A stretch of 64,000 nt of DNA from Sulfuriflexus mobilis. Lineage in GTDB: Bacteria > Pseudomonadota > Gammaproteobacteria > AKS1. The position numbers and the translations under genes were made by a program. The stretch lies in the NCBI RefSeq assembly GCF_003967195.1, contig NZ_AP018725.1, positions 1,736,001 through 1,800,000 on the forward strand, in the 5' to 3' direction. Below the pieces are notes generated by a model. That model was given only the letters and a program-made list of their open reading frames with translations. It was not told the origin of the DNA and searched no databases. Shown one piece after another: positions 15,270-25,881 of this stretch; position 1 is the first letter of the stretch, and each line of letters starts with the position of its first letter.

Positions 15270-16406
15270 TTACTCAAGAAACTTAGTGTTCTCATTAATA
15301 TTTGTCAGGATATCATCTTTAATTTCCTGATTATAAACACCTGCTTTCAAAATGACGCAGGGATTATTTACACCTCTGAGAACAGAAGGTGATTGCACCA
15401 TCAAATTTGTTCCGTAGAGACGTCTCCCTTGTTTATTCTTGTCATTATCAAGAAGTGAGACAATTTTGCTAGTATCAAGCCCAAAAGCAATTAAATACTG
15501 GGCAAAAACATGTGCGCCAAAAAGATACACAGGCTGATCCATGTTCTGAATTATAAAGTTTAACTCTGAAATAAGATCCTGATGATACTTCACGTATTCT
15601 TCGTAAAGTGCTTTATTCTTTTGGTACAAGTCGGGTGCCAATTCGGTCGGCTGCACTGATTTATCTCGAATTGCTGCATAAAAAATACTATGGTCGTCCA
15701 TGAAATACTCCTTGGACGCCAATCTAAAGCCATGTTTTGCCAAAAGAAACTCTACATATGATTCTGTAAGGAAAACAGTATGCTCGAAATTTATACAATT
15801 AGTATACTTCCTTTCAAGCATGACCTGCATATTTGGTAGAGAAAAAATCAGGCTCTTACCTTCTTCCATAAAGTCGGCCAAATGCTTCATAAATTGATCA
15901 GGCTGATAAATATGCTCAAAAACATGCGAATGAACAAGTGCATCAAAAGGCTCATTATACGAAAACTTGTCATCAAAAAAGCCTTTTATAAAATGAGCCT
16001 TGCTTCCTTCGACTGGCGATGGATTAGGTTCAAGAATAGTCCATGGGATAGCACCAAAAGATTGGTATTCTTTTTCCAAAATACCATGCGCTCCACCTAC
16101 TTCAAAAACAGAAGACGGATTTATTTTTTTAATAAAGTTTGCGAATGATTTGTGATGTTTATCCCATAAAGCACCTACTGCACCCGCCCCGTGTGATTCA
16201 GGGTACAGAACATCTAGCGGTAATAGACTTTTTAGTTGAATCAGTCCTGTACTACGGCTTATCCACCAACTCATATCTTGTTTAAGATCGTTTTCTTCCG
16301 GTTGTTCCATACACCCCATAAAAACCGGAAAATCCGGAAAAGTATAAAGGTGCTCGAGATCGTTGTCCTCTAAAAGCACGCAGTGTGTCCTTTCAATTAG
16401 CTGCAT
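15270..16406 (-). CDS. SAM-dependent methyltransferase, C-methyltransferase-like with a degenerate zinc site
   Basis: A 378-residue protein arranged like sugar C-methyltransferases (TylCIII/NovU type): N-terminal zinc-type domain, central SAM fold, C-terminal Rossmann-like domain. The SAM motif is SSVFEVGGAHGILEKEY near residue 97. VHSHVFEHIYQPDQFMKHL and SLPNMQVMLERKYTNCINFEHTVFLTESYVEFLL are typical of the family. VYLFGAHVFAQYLIAFGL begins the C-terminal domain. The N-terminal zinc ligands look lost: THCVLLEDNDLEHLYTFPDFP has one Cys where CxxC is expected. It overlaps the upstream gene by 14 nt. It may methylate carbon or oxygen; the target is unknown. Confidence 0.82.
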   Translation of the reverse strand: MQLIERTHCVLLEDNDLEHLYTFPDFPVFMGCMEQPEENDLKQDMSWWISRSTGLIQLKSLLPLDVLYPESHGAGAVGALWDKHHKSFANFIKKINPSSVFEVGGAHGILEKEYQSFGAIPWTILEPNPSPVEGSKAHFIKGFFDDKFSYNEPFDALVHSHVFEHIYQPDQFMKHLADFMEEGKSLIFSLPNMQVMLERKYTNCINFEHTVFLTESYVEFLLAKHGFRLASKEYFMDDHSIFYAAIRDKSVQPTELAPDLYQKNKALYEEYVKYHQDLISELNFIIQNMDQPVYLFGAHVFAQYLIAFGLDTSKIVSLLDNDKNKQGRRLYGTNLMVQSPSVLRGVNNPCVILKAGVYNQEIKDDILTNINENTKFLE

Positions 16407-17973
16407 TATTATCTAGCTCCTTAAACAGCATTGTCTTACCAAGCGCATAAAGTAATAGTGAATAGGGGTGGTGGTGTAGTGCTGCTATATTTAAATATAC
16501 TAAAGCAGTCATTATCCAAACCTTTTTACGATCATAACCTTCAAGCTCCAGCCATGAATCAAAACGTTGTTCACACTCCACCAATACCTGTTTACGAAGG
16601 AAATCATAGCGTATTTCATTCTTCTCCCATTCAACAGAAAATAACTCTCGTGTGATCAATTCATGACTTATAATTAATCCGTGTAGGAGCTTAGCGAAAT
16701 CATAATAAATATCGCCATTAGAAAGATCCCCACCGAAGTCTTGTCTCCAGTCGAGAAAAGAAAACCTTTGTTTACTTTCAGACCAAAGAATATTTTCAAA
16801 ATGAAAGTCGCCATGGAAGCGGCCGGGCAATCCATCTACCATCCATTCCCAATTTATAGAATCCAGAAGCTCTTTAAGCTTTGGCATCGGCATACCGTTT
16901 ATTACTTCATCGCCATCTTGCCGGTCAAAATTCTTATAAAACAATTCAACTCTTTCCATTGTCTTATCACGGTAAAAGCTCATACAAGCATGGTGAAAGC
17001 TTTGTAGTTCGTCAGGTTTTAAAGTGTGTGGCTCCCAAAACATTTTGGCGTGTTCAAGGAAACGCTCGAACAAGGGAGGATTTATTACTTCTGACAGAAC
17101 TCTTCCCTTTACCAAAGAATATTTATACATGTGAGGCTGATATCCTACGATTTCAGGGACATAGCCGCCCAGTTCTTTAGCTCGCTTTACGCGGTTCTCA
17201 ATGAATTTCTCATCATCAGAAAATTTGATCGCCTGATCCCCGACAAACCAGATTGCTTCATTGGCCTTTTCCAGAATATTAGGTGCATCTGGCTCAGTGT
17301 ATATTTCACGGGTTCTTGTTAGGCTTTCTATATTGCCTGTGTCATACCATGTAAATTGATAAGCTTTTATCTTATTAGTTACTAAGCCACGCAAACCATG
17401 CGCTTCACCTGTTTGAATAACCAGTTCATTCTTCTCATCCATAGCAGACCAGAATGTTTTAAAATCATGAATACCAGCAAGGCCGATGTATGGCTTATGT
17501 GATCCTGCTTTTCCTTCTCCTTTCTCACAAATTGCGTTCACCATACCTGACTGGACTTTAAGGGTTCTGTATGGGAGAAGATCATCGCACTCAGCATATG
17601 CCATCCAGTTTACATCTGGTCCTGGTATATCTTCTTTCACTAAAGTATCGCAGGAAATAAAGACAAATGGTTCTTGTAAGTATTCTCTACATGATAACAA
17701 GCTTAACCCCAAGCCAGAGCCAGGCCCTTCAAATGGCTCTACTTCGGCAAAAAAAAACTTTCGATCCTGATAAGCAAGTTCCAGGAACTCACGCACAAGA
17801 TGTCCTTTATGACCAAGGGCAACTACAAACTCCACATCTTCTGGAAACTGTTCAATCACGTGAGAGAGCGTTGGTCGGTTAGCTATGCTAACCAAGGATT
17901 TATTTACAAATTTAGTCAAACCGCCAAGCCGGGATCCTGTTCCGGCAGTCGGAATACAAACCCTATAGCTCAT
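16393..17973 (-). CDS. Bifunctional sugar nucleotidyltransferase and APH-type small-molecule kinase
   Basis: A 526-residue fusion. The first 230 or so residues are a nucleotidyltransferase: CIPTAGTGSRLGGLTKFVNKSL, where NK replaces the usual PK, and FVFISCDTLVKE with the metal-binding Asp. The C-terminal 280 or so residues are an aminoglycoside/choline-kinase fold: VKGRVLSEVI, GRFHGDFHFENILW with the catalytic HxDxxxxN, and FLDWRQDFGGDLSNGDIYYDFAKLL as the metal-binding block. One chain could phosphorylate a small molecule and then couple it to a nucleotide, as LicA and LicC do for choline. It lies between the cupin and methyltransferase genes with 4-nt and 14-nt overlaps. The substrate is unknown. 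Confidence 0.85.
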   Translation of the reverse strand: MSYRVCIPTAGTGSRLGGLTKFVNKSLVSIANRPTLSHVIEQFPEDVEFVVALGHKGHLVREFLELAYQDRKFFFAEVEPFEGPGSGLGLSLLSCREYLQEPFVFISCDTLVKEDIPGPDVNWMAYAECDDLLPYRTLKVQSGMVNAICEKGEGKAGSHKPYIGLAGIHDFKTFWSAMDEKNELVIQTGEAHGLRGLVTNKIKAYQFTWYDTGNIESLTRTREIYTEPDAPNILEKANEAIWFVGDQAIKFSDDEKFIENRVKRAKELGGYVPEIVGYQPHMYKYSLVKGRVLSEVINPPLFERFLEHAKMFWEPHTLKPDELQSFHHACMSFYRDKTMERVELFYKNFDRQDGDEVINGMPMPKLKELLDSINWEWMVDGLPGRFHGDFHFENILWSESKQRFSFLDWRQDFGGDLSNGDIYYDFAKLLHGLIISHELITRELFSVEWEKNEIRYDFLRKQVLVECEQRFDSWLELEGYDRKKVWIMTALVYLNIAALHHHPYSLLLYALGKTMLFKELDNNAAN

Positions 17974-18317
17974 TGAGGCGCCCTTTCGTAATCATCCACC
18001 AGTCTAACTACATCGTCCATTTCTGGAGTGCTGGCTTCAAGATAAACACTGTCTTCGACCGCTTCCATCCTATGGATAACGCCAGCTGGGAGAGTGATAT
18101 ATTCGCCACCTTTAAATACTCGTGACTCCAATTCATCTTGATTTGAACCGCTATAGATACGTAGTTGTCCACTTAATACATATATAGTTTCGCACTTAAT
18201 GTTGTGGTACTGGAGGCTGCAGCGATGACCTTTCAGCATTGTTAGCTTTTTCATCATATAGCGGTCATTAATTTCAATAACTTCCTCTTTACCCCAAGGC
18301 TTATCAATGATTTCCAT
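17970..18317 (-). CDS. Cupin protein, mannose-6-phosphate isomerase type II-like
   Basis: A 115-residue single cupin. PWGKEEVIEINDRYMMKKLTM, the metal-binding GHRCSLQYHNIKCETIYVLSG and the second cupin motif YITLPAGVIHRMEAVED are clear. This matches the isolated C-terminal domain of ManC/AlgA-type enzymes but without the guanylyltransferase part. It may isomerise a phosphorylated sugar in the pathway encoded by its neighbours. It ends with an ATGA overlap into the nucleotidyltransferase-kinase gene. The locus has a full ManC at 34248, so this is not simply a duplicate GDP-mannose enzyme. Confidence 0.85.
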   Translation of the reverse strand: MEIIDKPWGKEEVIEINDRYMMKKLTMLKGHRCSLQYHNIKCETIYVLSGQLRIYSGSNQDELESRVFKGGEYITLPAGVIHRMEAVEDSVYLEASTPEMDDVVRLVDDYERAPQ

Positions 18318-18328
18318 AATAGTTTATC

Positions 18329-19153
18329 CTATATTTGATACTGTTTAAATTCAGGGTGAAAATCAAAAAAACGGTCATAAAAGCTTTTAACATACTGTTG
18401 CATTGCCCAATGACTATTGAAACCATATTTGTTACGCATCCAGCGCTGACCTTCTTCGATATACAATCTGAGATTTTCCTCATACCCTTCAGTCTTGATC
18501 AGGTCTGCCTGATTAATAAGATATGACTCATTTTCATCGACCAAAACCTCACTAGTAATGGCTGCAGCCCAGTCATTCGCATAAGATTTGGCAATCAGTT
18601 CATGTTCAGAGCCGTATCCTCTAAAGTTAATCCCATCAAATAGAAAACTCATAAAGTCTGGTTTTTCTATATTTATTATATCTTCAATAAATTCACGCCT
18701 CAGTAACAATGCATTATTATGTATAAACCAGAAGTATTTTGTCTTTTGTTCTTGGAGCAATAATTTCTCTCCCCATCGTTTTCCACATGGGGATAAAATA
18801 CCCATTCTTGGATGCTTATCTATCAACCTCATCAGCGGGTTTAATGTTGATATTTTTTCCAACTCTGTATCATTTGTGAGCAAGAAAAATGCGTCATACT
18901 GCTTAAACTTTCCTTCTTTCCATAACTGACTCAAACCAAAATTCATGCCTCTTGGAAACCTTAACCCATGATATATCGCGTCCGGCCAATCTGCATGCCA
19001 TGTCATATTACGAGATAGTCGCCCCACATCAGAACCCGCCTCAACAACAAAAATATCAGTCATATCACCATCATACTCAGACAGGTGATCACATAATTTA
19101 TCAGTAACATCTGGTAAATTTCGATTTAGTATAATGGTTGCTACTCTTTTCAT
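18329..19153 (-). CDS. Family 2-like glycosyltransferase
   Basis: About 274 residues starting MKRVATIILNRNLPDVTDKL, a GT2-like N-terminus. FVVEAGSDVG takes the place of the usual DNGSxD, and GLRFPRGMNFGLSQLWKE and FFLLTNDTELEK (DxE-type) follow, then NPLMRLIDKHPRMGILSPCG. FWFIHNNALLLRREFIEDI is the acceptor-side segment. The ATG at 19153 overlaps the preceding stop by one base (TGATG), which I prefer over the GTG one codon earlier. The donor is unknown. It is embedded between the GatZ-like and cupin genes, so it may use the sugar they help make. Confidence 0.78.
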   Translation of the reverse strand: MKRVATIILNRNLPDVTDKLCDHLSEYDGDMTDIFVVEAGSDVGRLSRNMTWHADWPDAIYHGLRFPRGMNFGLSQLWKEGKFKQYDAFFLLTNDTELEKISTLNPLMRLIDKHPRMGILSPCGKRWGEKLLLQEQKTKYFWFIHNNALLLRREFIEDIINIEKPDFMSFLFDGINFRGYGSEHELIAKSYANDWAAAITSEVLVDENESYLINQADLIKTEGYEENLRLYIEEGQRWMRNKYGFNSHWAMQQYVKSFYDRFFDFHPEFKQYQI

Positions 19154-20319
19154 CACTCTCTCACCAAACGAAAGCTCTTAAGATATCTCATAATCGCTTG
19201 CTTAACTTGTCCCTTCAGGAACTGATCAAGGTCAATACCTTTACTTATAAGCTTCTTACTCGCCTCAGCTTTTAACTCAATACACTCAGGATTTGAAAAA
19301 TTATAGTGACCTGCAATAATTGCACGATCTCGATCTGTAGCTAAAGTTCCTTCAATCATCCACTTGCTCCATTTATTAGAGTCATATGATAATTGAAGAA
19401 ATTTTTCAGCTAACTTATTAAGCCCATTTTCTTCAAGAACAGACATCAGTGCGCGCGTCTCGCTTACACCAAATTCAGGGGCAACATTGGCAGCATGAAT
19501 CCCCAGTCTTGGGTGCCATTGCAATGCAGTGTCGGATAAATAATCGGTATTATGTTCTTTCATAAAGATCCCATACCTATTACATATGTCGATCATCTTC
19601 GGCAATTGAATTTCAGCTGGCAATTCATCTGCCACTCGAATAGGGACATCAAACGAACCAATGTTTCGCATTTCCATTACCCGTGTACCACATTGAATTA
19701 CTACAAAGGTAGGGGCTGGAAAGTTATTCTTCTTGCAGAAGTTTTGCATTGCACTTAATGTGTAGTCCAACTCCTCCTGGCTATTTGTACTACCGCTCTG
19801 CTCCTCCGTACCTATTTCAAAAATCACTTCCTTGCCTAGCTTTTGGGCTTGAGTCCAACAGAACTCATATAACTCAAAAACTCTATCCAAAACTTCATCA
19901 ACAGCAGGTCTATCATGTATATCTACACTAGGATCAATATGTAAAACCTGAAAGCCTGCTTCAATATCTGCAAGATATGATGACTTGGCAGACTCCATAG
20001 CTCTTCGTAAACTCAAATCCTCTTCTATTTCTTTGCTATTCTGCCATGGCCCGCCATGATCACGCGCTAATAAGATCTTTCCTTTTGTGTCTCGATCTAT
20101 TACATAGCTTGCAAAATCAGCAGTACTCCAGTTATTTACATACCCTCCCCCAAACTCATCAGAGTCAATTTGCCTTCGACTTGCAATTAGGAACAAAGGT
20201 ATATTATGTGTATTCGCCAATTCAATCGCCGCATCAACGCAATTCACACTCATGGGACCCACACCCAGTAAAGTGCATCTTCTGTTTTTTAAAAACGTCT
20301 CCAGCCGTTCCTGAATCAT
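19153..20319 (-). CDS. GatZ/KbaZ-family aldolase homologue, orphan
   Basis: About 388 residues. The family pattern is visible: TLLGVGPMSVNCVDAAIELAN, IPLFLIASRRQIDSDEFGGGYVNNWSTADF, ILLARDHGGPWQN (the GDHLGPN-like motif with D and H kept), LHIDPSVDIHDRPAVDE and VIFEIGTEEQSG. GatZ and KbaZ are TIM-barrel subunits that pair with GatY/KbaY in class II tagatose-bisphosphate aldolase. No GatY partner is encoded nearby. Instead it is translationally coupled (ATGA) to a KdsC-like phosphatase and followed by glycan genes. It may therefore be an aldolase or epimerase in its own right, building a sugar precursor. Start M4 at 20319 has better Shine-Dalgarno spacing than the ATG at 20328. Confidence 0.82.
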   Translation of the reverse strand: MIQERLETFLKNRRCTLLGVGPMSVNCVDAAIELANTHNIPLFLIASRRQIDSDEFGGGYVNNWSTADFASYVIDRDTKGKILLARDHGGPWQNSKEIEEDLSLRRAMESAKSSYLADIEAGFQVLHIDPSVDIHDRPAVDEVLDRVFELYEFCWTQAQKLGKEVIFEIGTEEQSGSTNSQEELDYTLSAMQNFCKKNNFPAPTFVVIQCGTRVMEMRNIGSFDVPIRVADELPAEIQLPKMIDICNRYGIFMKEHNTDYLSDTALQWHPRLGIHAANVAPEFGVSETRALMSVLEENGLNKLAEKFLQLSYDSNKWSKWMIEGTLATDRDRAIIAGHYNFSNPECIELKAEASKKLISKGIDLDQFLKGQVKQAIMRYLKSFRLVRE

Positions 20320-20849
20320 ACCGTCCATTCCCCGGAAAGTTTTGATTGTGAATTTGGAGCTTCATTTGGGTCGAAGGGTGTAAAAAATACTTCCAAAACA
20401 TGGAGACATGCTTCTGCTACTGCACGATCGGCTCCAGATCTTTGCGTCACAAAATTAGCATGCTTTTTAGCAACATCATCAGCATTAGAGGGAGCAATAG
20501 CGTAACCCACTTTTTTCATAACGTAATGATCAAAAATACCGTCACCCATATAAATTACTTCACTTGCATCATACTGTTCTTCAATCCAGTTTATTCGCCT
20601 TATCGTGCTAACTATATCTAAAGGAAACCCCATATCATCAACAATTCGTTTTTTGCTAATTGGAAAACCTTTCTTATCTCCCGTAACAAAGCGAATATCG
20701 ATGTGCGATTTCAGCAAAGAAAGTCCATCATTATCATCAGGACCAAATACCTTCATTGCCTTTCCATCAGCAGTATAAAGAAACTGACCAGTGGTCATTA
20801 CACCATCCACATCCAGAATGAAACATTTTGGTTTTATATTAGACTTCAT
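20316..20849 (-). CDS. KdsC-like HAD phosphatase
   Basis: A 177-residue HAD-superfamily protein of the small, capless KdsC type. Motif I is FILDVDGVMTTGQF near residue 10 with both catalytic aspartates. RFVTGDKKG gives motif II. The C-terminal block IYMGDGIFDHYVMKKVGYAIAPSNA has the acidic motif IV. KdsC removes phosphate from KDO-8-phosphate, and relatives act on NeuNAc-9-phosphate or similar sugars. Here the partner is a GatZ-like protein rather than a KdsA/NeuB synthase, so the substrate is probably different, for example a phosphorylated ketose. The gene is first in a tightly overlapping run. Confidence 0.88.
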   Translation of the reverse strand: MKSNIKPKCFILDVDGVMTTGQFLYTADGKAMKVFGPDDNDGLSLLKSHIDIRFVTGDKKGFPISKKRIVDDMGFPLDIVSTIRRINWIEEQYDASEVIYMGDGIFDHYVMKKVGYAIAPSNADDVAKKHANFVTQRSGADRAVAEACLHVLEVFFTPFDPNEAPNSQSKLSGEWTV

Positions 20850-23615: not shown

Positions 23616-24719
23616 TTACTTTATATCTTCAAATGTATTAATTGCACATACTACAGTTTCAACCTGACTTGTAGTCACAAATGGTGAGATCGGTAAACTC
23701 AATACTTCTTCTGCCAGCATTTCAGCAACAGGTAAGTGATATTTTTGTCCGCTTCTATAGCCGGCTTGCTGATGTGGAGGAATGGGATAGTGGATTACTG
23801 TTTCAACTCCTTGTTGCTCCAAATAGCTTTTTAATACATCCCTTTGTTTACTTCGAATGACGTAAAGGTGCCATACGGTTTCTGCATACTCAGGAGTAAG
23901 TGGCAATTGGACGTCCGCATCTGCCAAAAGTTTCGAGTACTGATCTGCGATTAGTCTACGAGTTGCGTTCCATTCATCAAGCACCACGAGTTTTACGCGA
24001 AGAAAAGCCGCCTGCATTTCATCCAATCGACTATTGTAACCGACAAGGTCATGTTGATACTTCACTTTTGAACCATAGTTGCGAAGCTGTTTAACCTTTT
24101 CAGCAATCGCATCATCGTTGGTGAGTACCGCACCACCGTCACCAAGGGCACCCAAGTTCTTCCCTGGATAGAAGCTGGTGCCCGCTGCATGACCTAATGA
24201 GCCTGTGCGCCGACCTTTGTAACGGGCGCCTTGTGCCTGCGCCGCATCTTCGATAACGATCAAGCCGTGCTTAGTAGCCAGTATATTTATTGGGTCCATA
24301 TCTGCTGGCTGCCCGTACAGATGGACTGGGAGAATCGCGCGAGTACGTTTGGAGATTGCGTTAGCGATTAATGCTGGATCGATGTTATGGGTATCAATAC
24401 AAGGCTCCACCGGAACAGGGACTGCCCCGCATTCGGTAACGGCCAGCCAAGTAGCGATAAAAGTATTAGAAGGAACGATAACCTCATCACCGGGACCGAT
24501 GCCATAGGCCCGTAACAAAAGGTGAAGCGCCTCGAGGCCATTGCCAACACCTATGCAATGCTTCACTTCGCAATATTGTGCGAATTCGCTCTCAAAGGCT
24601 TCCAATTCGGGACCCATGACGAACCAACCTGAATCAACCACCCGTCGATAGGCCGAATCAAGCGGTTCACGAATCGAATCGTTTAGTCGGCCCAGATCAA
24701 GGAATGGAACTAATTTCAT
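23616..24719 (-). CDS. fdtB: dTDP-3-amino-3,6-dideoxyhexose transaminase (FdtB-like)
   Basis: A 367-residue DegT/DnrJ/EryC1 PLP enzyme: [83 protein letters not shown] and [16 protein letters not shown] with the PLP lysine near residue 187. These are hallmarks of FdtB/QdtB-type 3-aminotransferases. With FdtA directly upstream it should convert dTDP-3-keto-6-deoxyhexose to dTDP-Fuc3N (or Qui3N; FdtA and QdtA are hard to separate by eye). The start overlaps fdtA by 4 nt. Confidence 0.88.
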
Positions 24720-25129
24720 TTGGCCGCTCTCTGGGCGTCACTAATAAACTGATCGTATTCACGATAGTAATCCAGTTCATCGTAGTAATCCGAGGCCAAT
24801 ACCATGCACACCGCCCCAGATGAAAAGCTGTCAATTACTCGCCAGATCATTGGGCATACGTAAAGTCCGCTGTGACTACAGTCCATATGTACAGTCTTTT
24901 TTGAGTGTCCATCATCAAGGTGAATATCAAATGAACCCGATATGGCGATGATTAGTTGATGGAGTTCTTTATGTGCATGCCCACCTCTCTCAGCACCCTC
25001 AGGGACATCGGATAAGTAGTAAACACGCTGGATAGCAAATGGTACATGTCGAATCGATTCAACAAAGGTTAAATTACCCCTTGGATCCTTGACCTTTGGC
25101 AGATCAATAATCTTACACGAATCTAGCAC
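24716..25129 (-). CDS. fdtA: dTDP-4-keto-6-deoxyglucose 3,4-ketoisomerase (FdtA-like)
   Basis: A 137-residue cupin of the WxcM/FdtA/QdtA family: [30 protein letters not shown], then [22 protein letters not shown] with the catalytic His residues, and a final [10 protein letters not shown]. It moves the keto group from C4 to C3, giving the substrate of the next enzyme, FdtB. The GTG start overlaps the acyltransferase gene by 7 nt (GTGCTAG). Whether the product has galacto (FdtA) or gluco (QdtA) configuration cannot be decided by eye. Confidence 0.9.
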
Positions 25130-25881
25130 TGATCGTCTCCCTCATTATTCTCCCAATCCGCTGTTACCGATGCCGGGTATCCACGCGTGAAGTGATGTGT
25201 CCATGGATATGCAGGTCGATTGGAACCATCGCGCAACTTGATTGTTTTCGCCTCGCCAACAACACGAGCCGGAACACCTGCAACGAGCATATTCGGAGGA
25301 ATATTCTTCGTCACACACGCATGTGCAGCGACAACTGAATGATGACCAACTGTTACACCTGGTAGCACTACTGAAGCTGCCGCGATGCTTACATAGTCTT
25401 CGATAGTGCAGCCCATCAGCACGTTACTTGGCGGAGTGGGGTCATTGGTAAGTACCACGTAAGGCAATATCCACACAAAATTGCCAATTGTGGTATTTTT
25501 CCCAACAAAAACATTGGATTGAAAGCGAACGTAATCTCCAACAGAACAATCTCCTTGGATTTCACTCAGGGTGCCTATCTGAAAACCCGTACCGGCTATT
25601 GTATTTTCTCTCACAGTCACGTGATGACCTGTCGTCAATCCTTCCCCAAATGAAGAGGATTCATAGAGCACTGAGTGGGAGCGGATTAATGCACCATCGC
25701 CTATGATTAATGGTGTGCCGTCACCGAGTTGAGTCGCTATGCCCACCTCACAGTAAGCCCCAACCTTAACCCTGTCACCCAAAACCACATTCGCGTGAAT
25801 AATAGAGAATGGCCCAACCTCAACGTGATCGCCAAGTTTCGCTTCTGGTGAAATATAAGCAGATGGATGAATCGATCTCAT
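25123..25881 (-). CDS. Left-handed beta-helix acyltransferase, FdtC/QdtC-like
   Basis: A 252-residue hexapeptide-repeat protein. Repeats such as SIIHANVVLGDRVKVGAYCEVG and GDYVRFQSNVFVGKNTTIGNFVWI build a beta-helix. TVGHHSVVAAHACVTKNIPPNMLVAGVPARVVG is the usual C-terminal cap of sugar acetyltransferases. Next to fdtA and fdtB it most likely acetylates the 3-amino group to give dTDP-Fuc3NAc or Qui3NAc. The length is close to FdtC-type enzymes, but the acyl group is inferred. It overlaps both neighbours by a few bases. Confidence 0.85.
   Translation of the reverse strand: MRSIHPSAYISPEAKLGDHVEVGPFSIIHANVVLGDRVKVGAYCEVGIATQLGDGTPLIIGDGALIRSHSVLYESSSFGEGLTTGHHVTVRENTIAGTGFQIGTLSEIQGDCSVGDYVRFQSNVFVGKNTTIGNFVWILPYVVLTNDPTPPSNVLMGCTIEDYVSIAAASVVLPGVTVGHHSVVAAHACVTKNIPPNMLVAGVPARVVGEAKTIKLRDGSNRPAYPWTHHFTRGYPASVTADWENNEGDDQC

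Follow-up and report, generated by a model that had tools for sequence, protein, structure and literature searches.

Within a 64,000-nucleotide stretch of the genome of the gammaproteobacterium Sulfuriflexus mobilis (NZ_AP018725.1, positions 1,736,001 to 1,800,000 of the forward strand; hereinafter the window), a compact minus-strand run of five genes at 16393–20849 codes for a HAD phosphatase, a GatZ/KbaZ-like protein, a glycosyltransferase (GT), a cupin and a fusion of a nucleotidyltransferase (NTase) domain to an APH-type kinase domain (hereinafter NTK). We posit that this cassette probably constitutes a de novo nucleoside diphosphate (NDP)-sugar pathway, which would follow the logic of the NDP-heptose route while using mostly different enzymes. 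The chemistry is of a known kind, the combination of enzymes is not; copies of the cassette occur in over a dozen phyla of bacteria and in numerous uncultured phages. The genes of the run, together with the one that follows it, are:

20316..20849, minus strand: KdsC-like HAD phosphatase, 177 amino acids (TIGR01670, E 2.7e-19, under the cut-off)
19153..20328, minus strand: GatZ/KbaZ-like protein, 391 amino acids (PF08013, above the cut-off; predicted ketose-phosphate C4-epimerase)
18329..19156, minus strand: divergent GT2-like (GT-A) glycosyltransferase, 275 amino acids (weak Pfam GT2 matches in some relatives; predicted dedicated transferase)
17970..18317, minus strand: small cupin, 115 amino acids (PF01050, E 2.2e-10; predicted aldose-ketose isomerase)
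16393..17973, minus strand: NTK, 526 amino acids (PF12804 and PF01636; predicted sugar 1-kinase and NDP-sugar pyrophosphorylase)
15270..16406, minus strand: S-adenosylmethionine-dependent methyltransferase with a weak C-methyltransferase C-terminal domain (PF13489, E 7.4e-12; PF08484, E 5.8e-4, below the cut-off)

An initial annotation, made from the sequence alone, had described the five genes as a tight run, and all five open reading frames were confirmed. Three of the four junctions overlap (HAD/GatZ by 13 bp, GatZ/GT and cupin/NTK by 4 bp each), the GT/cupin junction being an 11-bp gap, and NTK shares 14 bp with the downstream methyltransferase gene. Its domain calls stand for the HAD, GatZ, cupin and NTase-APH proteins. 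The GT2 call is the weakest of the five: the window protein is without a Pfam match at E<=0.1, PF00535 is matched by one of 26 relatives (E 4.7e-4), and some relatives weakly match GT2 families.

The GatZ-like protein

The window GatZ, which a whole-genome search recovers as the single member in its genome, scores 35.7 bits against PF08013 (gathering cut-off 26.7) and lies far under the equivalogs of the tagatose-bisphosphate aldolase subunit (29.0 versus 568.8 bits for TIGR02810, 34.9 versus 707 for NF012002). The closest fold to its AlphaFold2 model (pLDDT 92.6) is E. coli GatZ (2fiq; Z 36.8, root-mean-square deviation 2.8, 362 residues aligned), followed by the S. meliloti structure 3txv (Z 33.7), the tagatose 4-epimerase 9kcs (Z 27.2) and UxaE (Z about 27), with the class II aldolases ranking after these epimerases (Z about 25). 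E. coli GatZ and KbaZ, annotated as aldolase chaperones, turn fructose 6-phosphate into tagatose 6-phosphate, and this C4-epimerase activity is not explained by deletion or expression of gatY (PMC11907403). For E. coli GatZ, a zinc-dependent retro-aldol mechanism using D87, H88, E171 and H257 has been proposed, and aldolase activity was absent under the conditions tested (PMC11907403). The metal site, which the initial annotation had singled out for structural inspection, is retained in both model and alignment, the four E. coli residues corresponding to D90, H91, E175 and H259; a 58-sequence alignment shows no variation at D90, H91 and H259 and either Glu or Asp at position 175. We hence predict that the window protein is a ketose-phosphate C4-epimerase.

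In the pocket, the window protein has G24, I48 and N281 where E. coli GatZ has the canonical C20, E44 and K279, and R51 and R89 in place of S47 and G86. The sequence places the protein in the same superfamily as canonical GatZ but in a different subfamily, and its remodelled pocket indicates that the substrate may differ from fructose 6-phosphate. Catabolic-looking relatives from Listeria and Klebsiella show the same pocket changes; taken with their context, these suggest a pentulose or heptulose phosphate as a possible substrate. In the Listeria locus (L011:4093-10051), GatZ occurs with a fructose-type phosphotransferase system (PTS) and a HAD protein, and on the Klebsiella plasmid (L012:807-10289) with the same components plus a transaldolase and a transketolase; a near match to the latter operon was not found in E. 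coli genomes. Four Balneolaceae loci (L064, L065, L067 and L082) code for relatives of 48–57% identity beside a PIG-L-like protein (by sequence) and other neighbors, the other cassette genes being absent. Between insertion sequences on a Sinorhizobium symbiotic plasmid (L010:10016-13492) lie genes for a GatZ homolog, a cupin, a DegT aminotransferase, a HAD protein and a DeoR regulator, which may represent an amino-sugar variant. A tree of the GatZ relatives contains many open forks and does not single out one clade as nearest to the catabolic versions.

As the initial annotation had noted, no class II aldolase (the GatY/KbaY partner) is found in the cluster. Two are encoded far off in the genome, one of them FbaA-like and the other a ketose-bisphosphate aldolase extended at its C terminus, and both were rejected as candidate GatY partners; the extension of the latter (L103:1492-2667; C1:1172046 in the window's own genome) resembles an ABM-type domain. 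The absence of GatY is not a puzzle, because E. coli GatZ and KbaZ epimerize without it, the residues and fold of the window protein fit such an activity, and phages substitute a ketose-phosphate 3-epimerase at this position of the pathway (see below).

The other enzymes and the proposed pathway

The HAD protein scores 69.6 bits against the KdsC subfamily model TIGR01670 (cut-off 106.95). It is a C0-type HAD phosphatase, with motif I and IV aspartates D13, D15, D103 and D107 invariant in 36 relatives, and is predicted to remove a terminal phosphate. That it is the housekeeping KdsC was ruled out by this score and by a separate KdsC-like gene at 646700 in the genome. The cupin resembles the C-terminal domain of mannose-6-phosphate isomerase; its metal-ligand residues H38, E43 and H82 are invariant and Q36 nearly so. 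NTK keeps the key residues of both its NTase (G11, G13, D109, D211) and APH (K250, H387, D389, D408) domains, and in its AlphaFold2 model (pLDDT 95) the NTase fold matches 3hl3 with Z 23.6. Sequence and fold searches of the PDB with NTK returned mainly matches to the NTase domain, and the nearest APH kinase was not singled out. We predict that the fusion combines a sugar 1-kinase with an NDP-sugar pyrophosphorylase.

Going by the characterized members of its family, GatZ would invert C4 of a ketose phosphate through metal-dependent retro-aldol/aldol chemistry. The cupin would then convert the ketose phosphate to an aldose phosphate and the HAD enzyme would take off the terminal phosphate to yield a free aldose, although these two steps may come in either order. 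The APH domain would phosphorylate the free aldose to an aldose 1-phosphate and the fused NTase would convert this to the NDP-aldose, steps for which phage RB69 (see below) offers support. Finally, the GT would move the sugar into the surface polysaccharide of the locus, where the methyltransferase may decorate it. As the sugar, talose or galactose derived from tagatose 6-phosphate, a heptose from mannoheptulose and an L-pentose would each fit.

Conservation across bacteria

A scan of one genome per bacterial species recovered 329 places encoding relatives of the window GatZ, the best 80 of which were used for neighborhood counts. These 80 include Planctomycetota, Chlorobiota, Thermodesulfobacteriota, Bacteroidota, Cyanobacteriota (Prochlorococcus), Kiritimatiellota and candidate phyla, as well as the SAR11 and SAR116 Pseudomonadota. 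Of their neighborhoods, 68 contain the cupin, 64 NTK, 61 the HAD, 52 the GT and 39 the methyltransferase. The usual order is that of the window, HAD-GatZ-GT-cupin-NTK, with the HAD immediately 5′ of GatZ in 54/76 and the cupin immediately 5′ of NTK in 48/61; the methyltransferase, where present, usually follows NTK directly. The conserved block thus extends beyond five genes, since about half the relatives include the methyltransferase in it. This order, conserved across many phyla, rules out a chance assembly of the gene set, against which the initial annotation had advised a check.

Variants exist: type B loci have a larger two-domain cupin and a shikimate-dehydrogenase-like (AroE-like) protein, and type C loci lack the GT. 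The AroE-like protein (PF08501) accompanies type B bacterial cassettes and 29 phage loci (L022:12392-13201, L009:9333-9983, L280:7141-7995); in the L009 version the carboxylate-binding serines are apparently replaced, as judged by eye. Small SnoaL/NTF2-like proteins also recur beside the cassette, their clusters being found in 12 and 3 loci (L018:7935-8282, L015:167-508).

In a sample of 398 genomes from the window's phylum, NTK accompanies the window-type GatZ in each of the seven genomes that have it, and at E<=1e-30 NTK is found in only eight of the 398. The corresponding P value is inflated by relatedness, five of the seven genomes belonging to one genus, and is not used as a probability. 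In two of the seven (G022 and G053), GatZ and NTK lie on different contigs, although the GatZ contig of G053 stops nearby, so that the two may be physically linked in that genome. Because the two genes co-occur even on different contigs, their link is functional and not only positional.

Phage versions and alternative front ends

In viral contigs, a first scan found one locus and an alignment query 295, of which 80 were fetched; 81 loci were analyzed. NTK is present in 69 of these 81 GatZ loci, often with the cupin fused to it or directly upstream. One type of small HAD occurs in 36 of the loci, a KdsC-like HAD in 25, the AroE-like protein in 29 and a split transketolase in nine. A search for NTK in annotated phages and plasmids returned almost nothing.

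Most NTK loci that lack GatZ have, next to NTK and a KdsC-like HAD, a Ribul_P_3_epim (Rpe-like) protein and a SIS isomerase of the HxlB-like type, a non-homologous replacement of GatZ and the cupin. Two Rpe-like proteins scanned match Ribul_P_3_epim at E 1e-39 to 1e-45, and one HxlB-like SIS protein scores above the TIGR03127 cut-off. In L078:12043-17148, a GmhA-like SIS protein, a split transketolase and a truncated AroE-like frame come after a second cupin-NTK pair; a GmhA-like SIS directly behind such a pair is seen in this locus only, and there is none in the window set. The strongest case for GatZ and the cupin supplying a sugar to NTK is this variety of front ends feeding a single kinase-NTase. 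A wider interpretation, which we offer only tentatively, is that of a widespread and undescribed modular family of NDP-sugar pathways built around the NTase-APH fusion, in which swappable front ends (GatZ C4-epimerase with cupin, Rpe-like protein with HxlB-like SIS, or KdsD-like SIS) would yield different rare aldoses from ketose phosphates of central metabolism. The window version would then make, by a new route, a rare sugar epimeric at C4: tagatose 6-phosphate could give a talose or galactose derivative, for instance, and a mannoheptulose 7-phosphate a heptose.

In four viral loci (L218:2904-10033, L221, L223 and L228), NTK and the Rpe-like and SIS genes lie between genes for a deoxycytidine monophosphate (dCMP)-hydroxymethylase-like protein (by sequence), a dCMP-deaminase-like protein, a GT and a C5-cytosine DNA methylase (PF00145). 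Judging from these gene contents, such loci suggest phage DNA with glycosylated cytosine.

Genomic setting in the window

The genes surrounding the run code for an ABC-2 exporter and its ATPase, a WecE-type transaminase, an FdtA-like protein, two GT61 proteins and a NodU-type carbamoyltransferase, and the locus is a surface-polysaccharide cluster. Within it, consecutive genes for an FdtA-like protein, a DegT aminotransferase and a hexapeptide acyltransferase (23616-25881) look like a 3-amino-3,6-dideoxyhexose set.

Comparison with known systems

The DNA of phage RB69 contains arabinosyl-hydroxymethylcytosine (PMC6024577). In RB69, a GutQ/KdsD-like SIS protein is encoded beside two frames (ORF053c/052c) homologous to the NTase and APH halves of NTK, a distant homology of 28.5 and 43.7 bits when the frames are searched separately as deposited, and its small HAD is homologous (74 bits) to one small-HAD type of the phage NTK loci. 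This module (ORF055c SIS, ORF53_52c, ORF051c HAD) shares with the cassettes an NTase-APH fusion, an adjacent isomerase, a small HAD akin to that in phage NTK loci, and the making of a sugar for transfer, here by a phage GT. It differs from the window cassette in its KdsD-like isomerase, in the absence of GatZ and the cupin and in a small HAD that is not KdsC-like; moreover, its product goes to DNA, whereas the window cassette lies in a surface-polysaccharide cluster.

The GDP/ADP-heptose pathway (GmhA, HddA/HldE kinase, GmhB phosphatase, HddC nucleotidyltransferase) has the kind of chemistry that is proposed here, in which a ketose phosphate would become an aldose phosphate, with anomeric phosphorylation, removal of the terminal phosphate by a HAD enzyme and nucleotidyl transfer; in both, the kinase and NTase genes are clustered. 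In contrast to that pathway, the window cassette has GatZ and a cupin instead of the SIS isomerase GmhA, an APH-type instead of a GHMP kinase, a KdsC-like HAD instead of GmhB, and a fused kinase and NTase, with dephosphorylation probably preceding phosphorylation at C1. About 360 residues of the window GatZ follow the fold of E. coli GatZ/KbaZ, and the residues proposed for catalysis and metal binding are common to both, but structural alignment gives about 17% identity, and the window protein has other pocket residues, a biosynthetic context and no GatY.

AmgK is an APH-type kinase. The AmgK/MurU and FKP systems take, as is proposed here for NTK, a free sugar to the sugar 1-phosphate and on to the NDP-sugar by a linked kinase and NTase, with an NTase fold of the MurU type. 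However, AmgK and MurU are separate enzymes of cell-wall salvage and FKP, which has a GHMP kinase, salvages fucose, whereas the free sugar of the window cassette is apparently made de novo.

Weighing the alternatives

The initial annotation had assigned to GatZ the building of a new carbon skeleton by C–C bond formation, to be followed by dephosphorylation, isomerization, phosphorylation and nucleotidyl transfer. The window GatZ does have a class II aldolase fold with the catalytic Asp and the metal site, and epimerization is thought to run via retro-aldol cleavage, so that aldol chemistry is available to it (PMC11907403). Yet E. coli GatZ acts as an epimerase, and the replacement of GatZ and cupin by Rpe-like and HxlB-like SIS proteins fits the reshaping of a ketose better than chain building; we consider an orphan aldolase unlikely and this part of the annotation probably wrong. 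We give still less credence to the possibility that NTK activates a small polar alcohol in the manner of LicA/LicC for phosphocholine, with GatZ, the HAD and the cupin serving another product of the locus. The NTase domain matches LicC (1jyk) nearly as well as it does sugar NTases, with a fold similar to both, and LicA is APH-like; but in the 398-genome sample NTK is always present with a window-type GatZ, even unlinked, and NTK adjoins SIS and Rpe-like sugar-phosphate enzymes in phages and is homologous to the arabinose-linked RB69 protein. The PTS operons of the Listeria and Klebsiella homologs, the latter with transaldolase and transketolase, would accord with GatZ and the HAD forming a detoxification or salvage branch that returns damaged ketose phosphates and merely travels with glycan genes. 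We regard this as the least probable account, since within glycan loci and on phage islands the two genes form a tight operon with those for the GT, the cupin, NTK and the methyltransferase.

Several observations weigh against the NDP-sugar pathway that we prefer. Certain GatZ relatives, from Balneolaceae, Listeria and Klebsiella, occur in different surroundings that look catabolic, and with the loss of E44, C20 and K279 and gain of R51 and R89 in the window GatZ clade, its substrates may be a pair other than fructose 6-phosphate and tagatose 6-phosphate. For the cupin, a structural or regulatory role is conceivable instead, and 11 loci have the larger two-domain version. The anomeric position is assigned to the APH kinase by analogy with AmgK/MurU and FKP, and the RB69 route to UDP-arabinose is itself a proposal. 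Nevertheless, an NDP-sugar pathway is favored, since no GatY is found adjacent to GatZ and the set is widely conserved. The sequence of ketose formation, dephosphorylation, isomerization, phosphorylation, activation and transfer put forward in the initial annotation is supported, and the gene set was not found as a described pathway in the open-access literature, subscription literature not being covered.

Implications

If this proposal is true, a family annotated as a non-catalytic aldolase subunit would provide the entry enzyme of a nucleotide-sugar pathway, one that occurs in marine cyanobacteria and SAR11, in numerous further phyla and in abundant phages that are uncultured. The RB69-type sugar-activation step would become directly testable with purified proteins. 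Rare sugars of a new class would also be expected in bacterial surfaces, and probably in phage DNA or virions as well.

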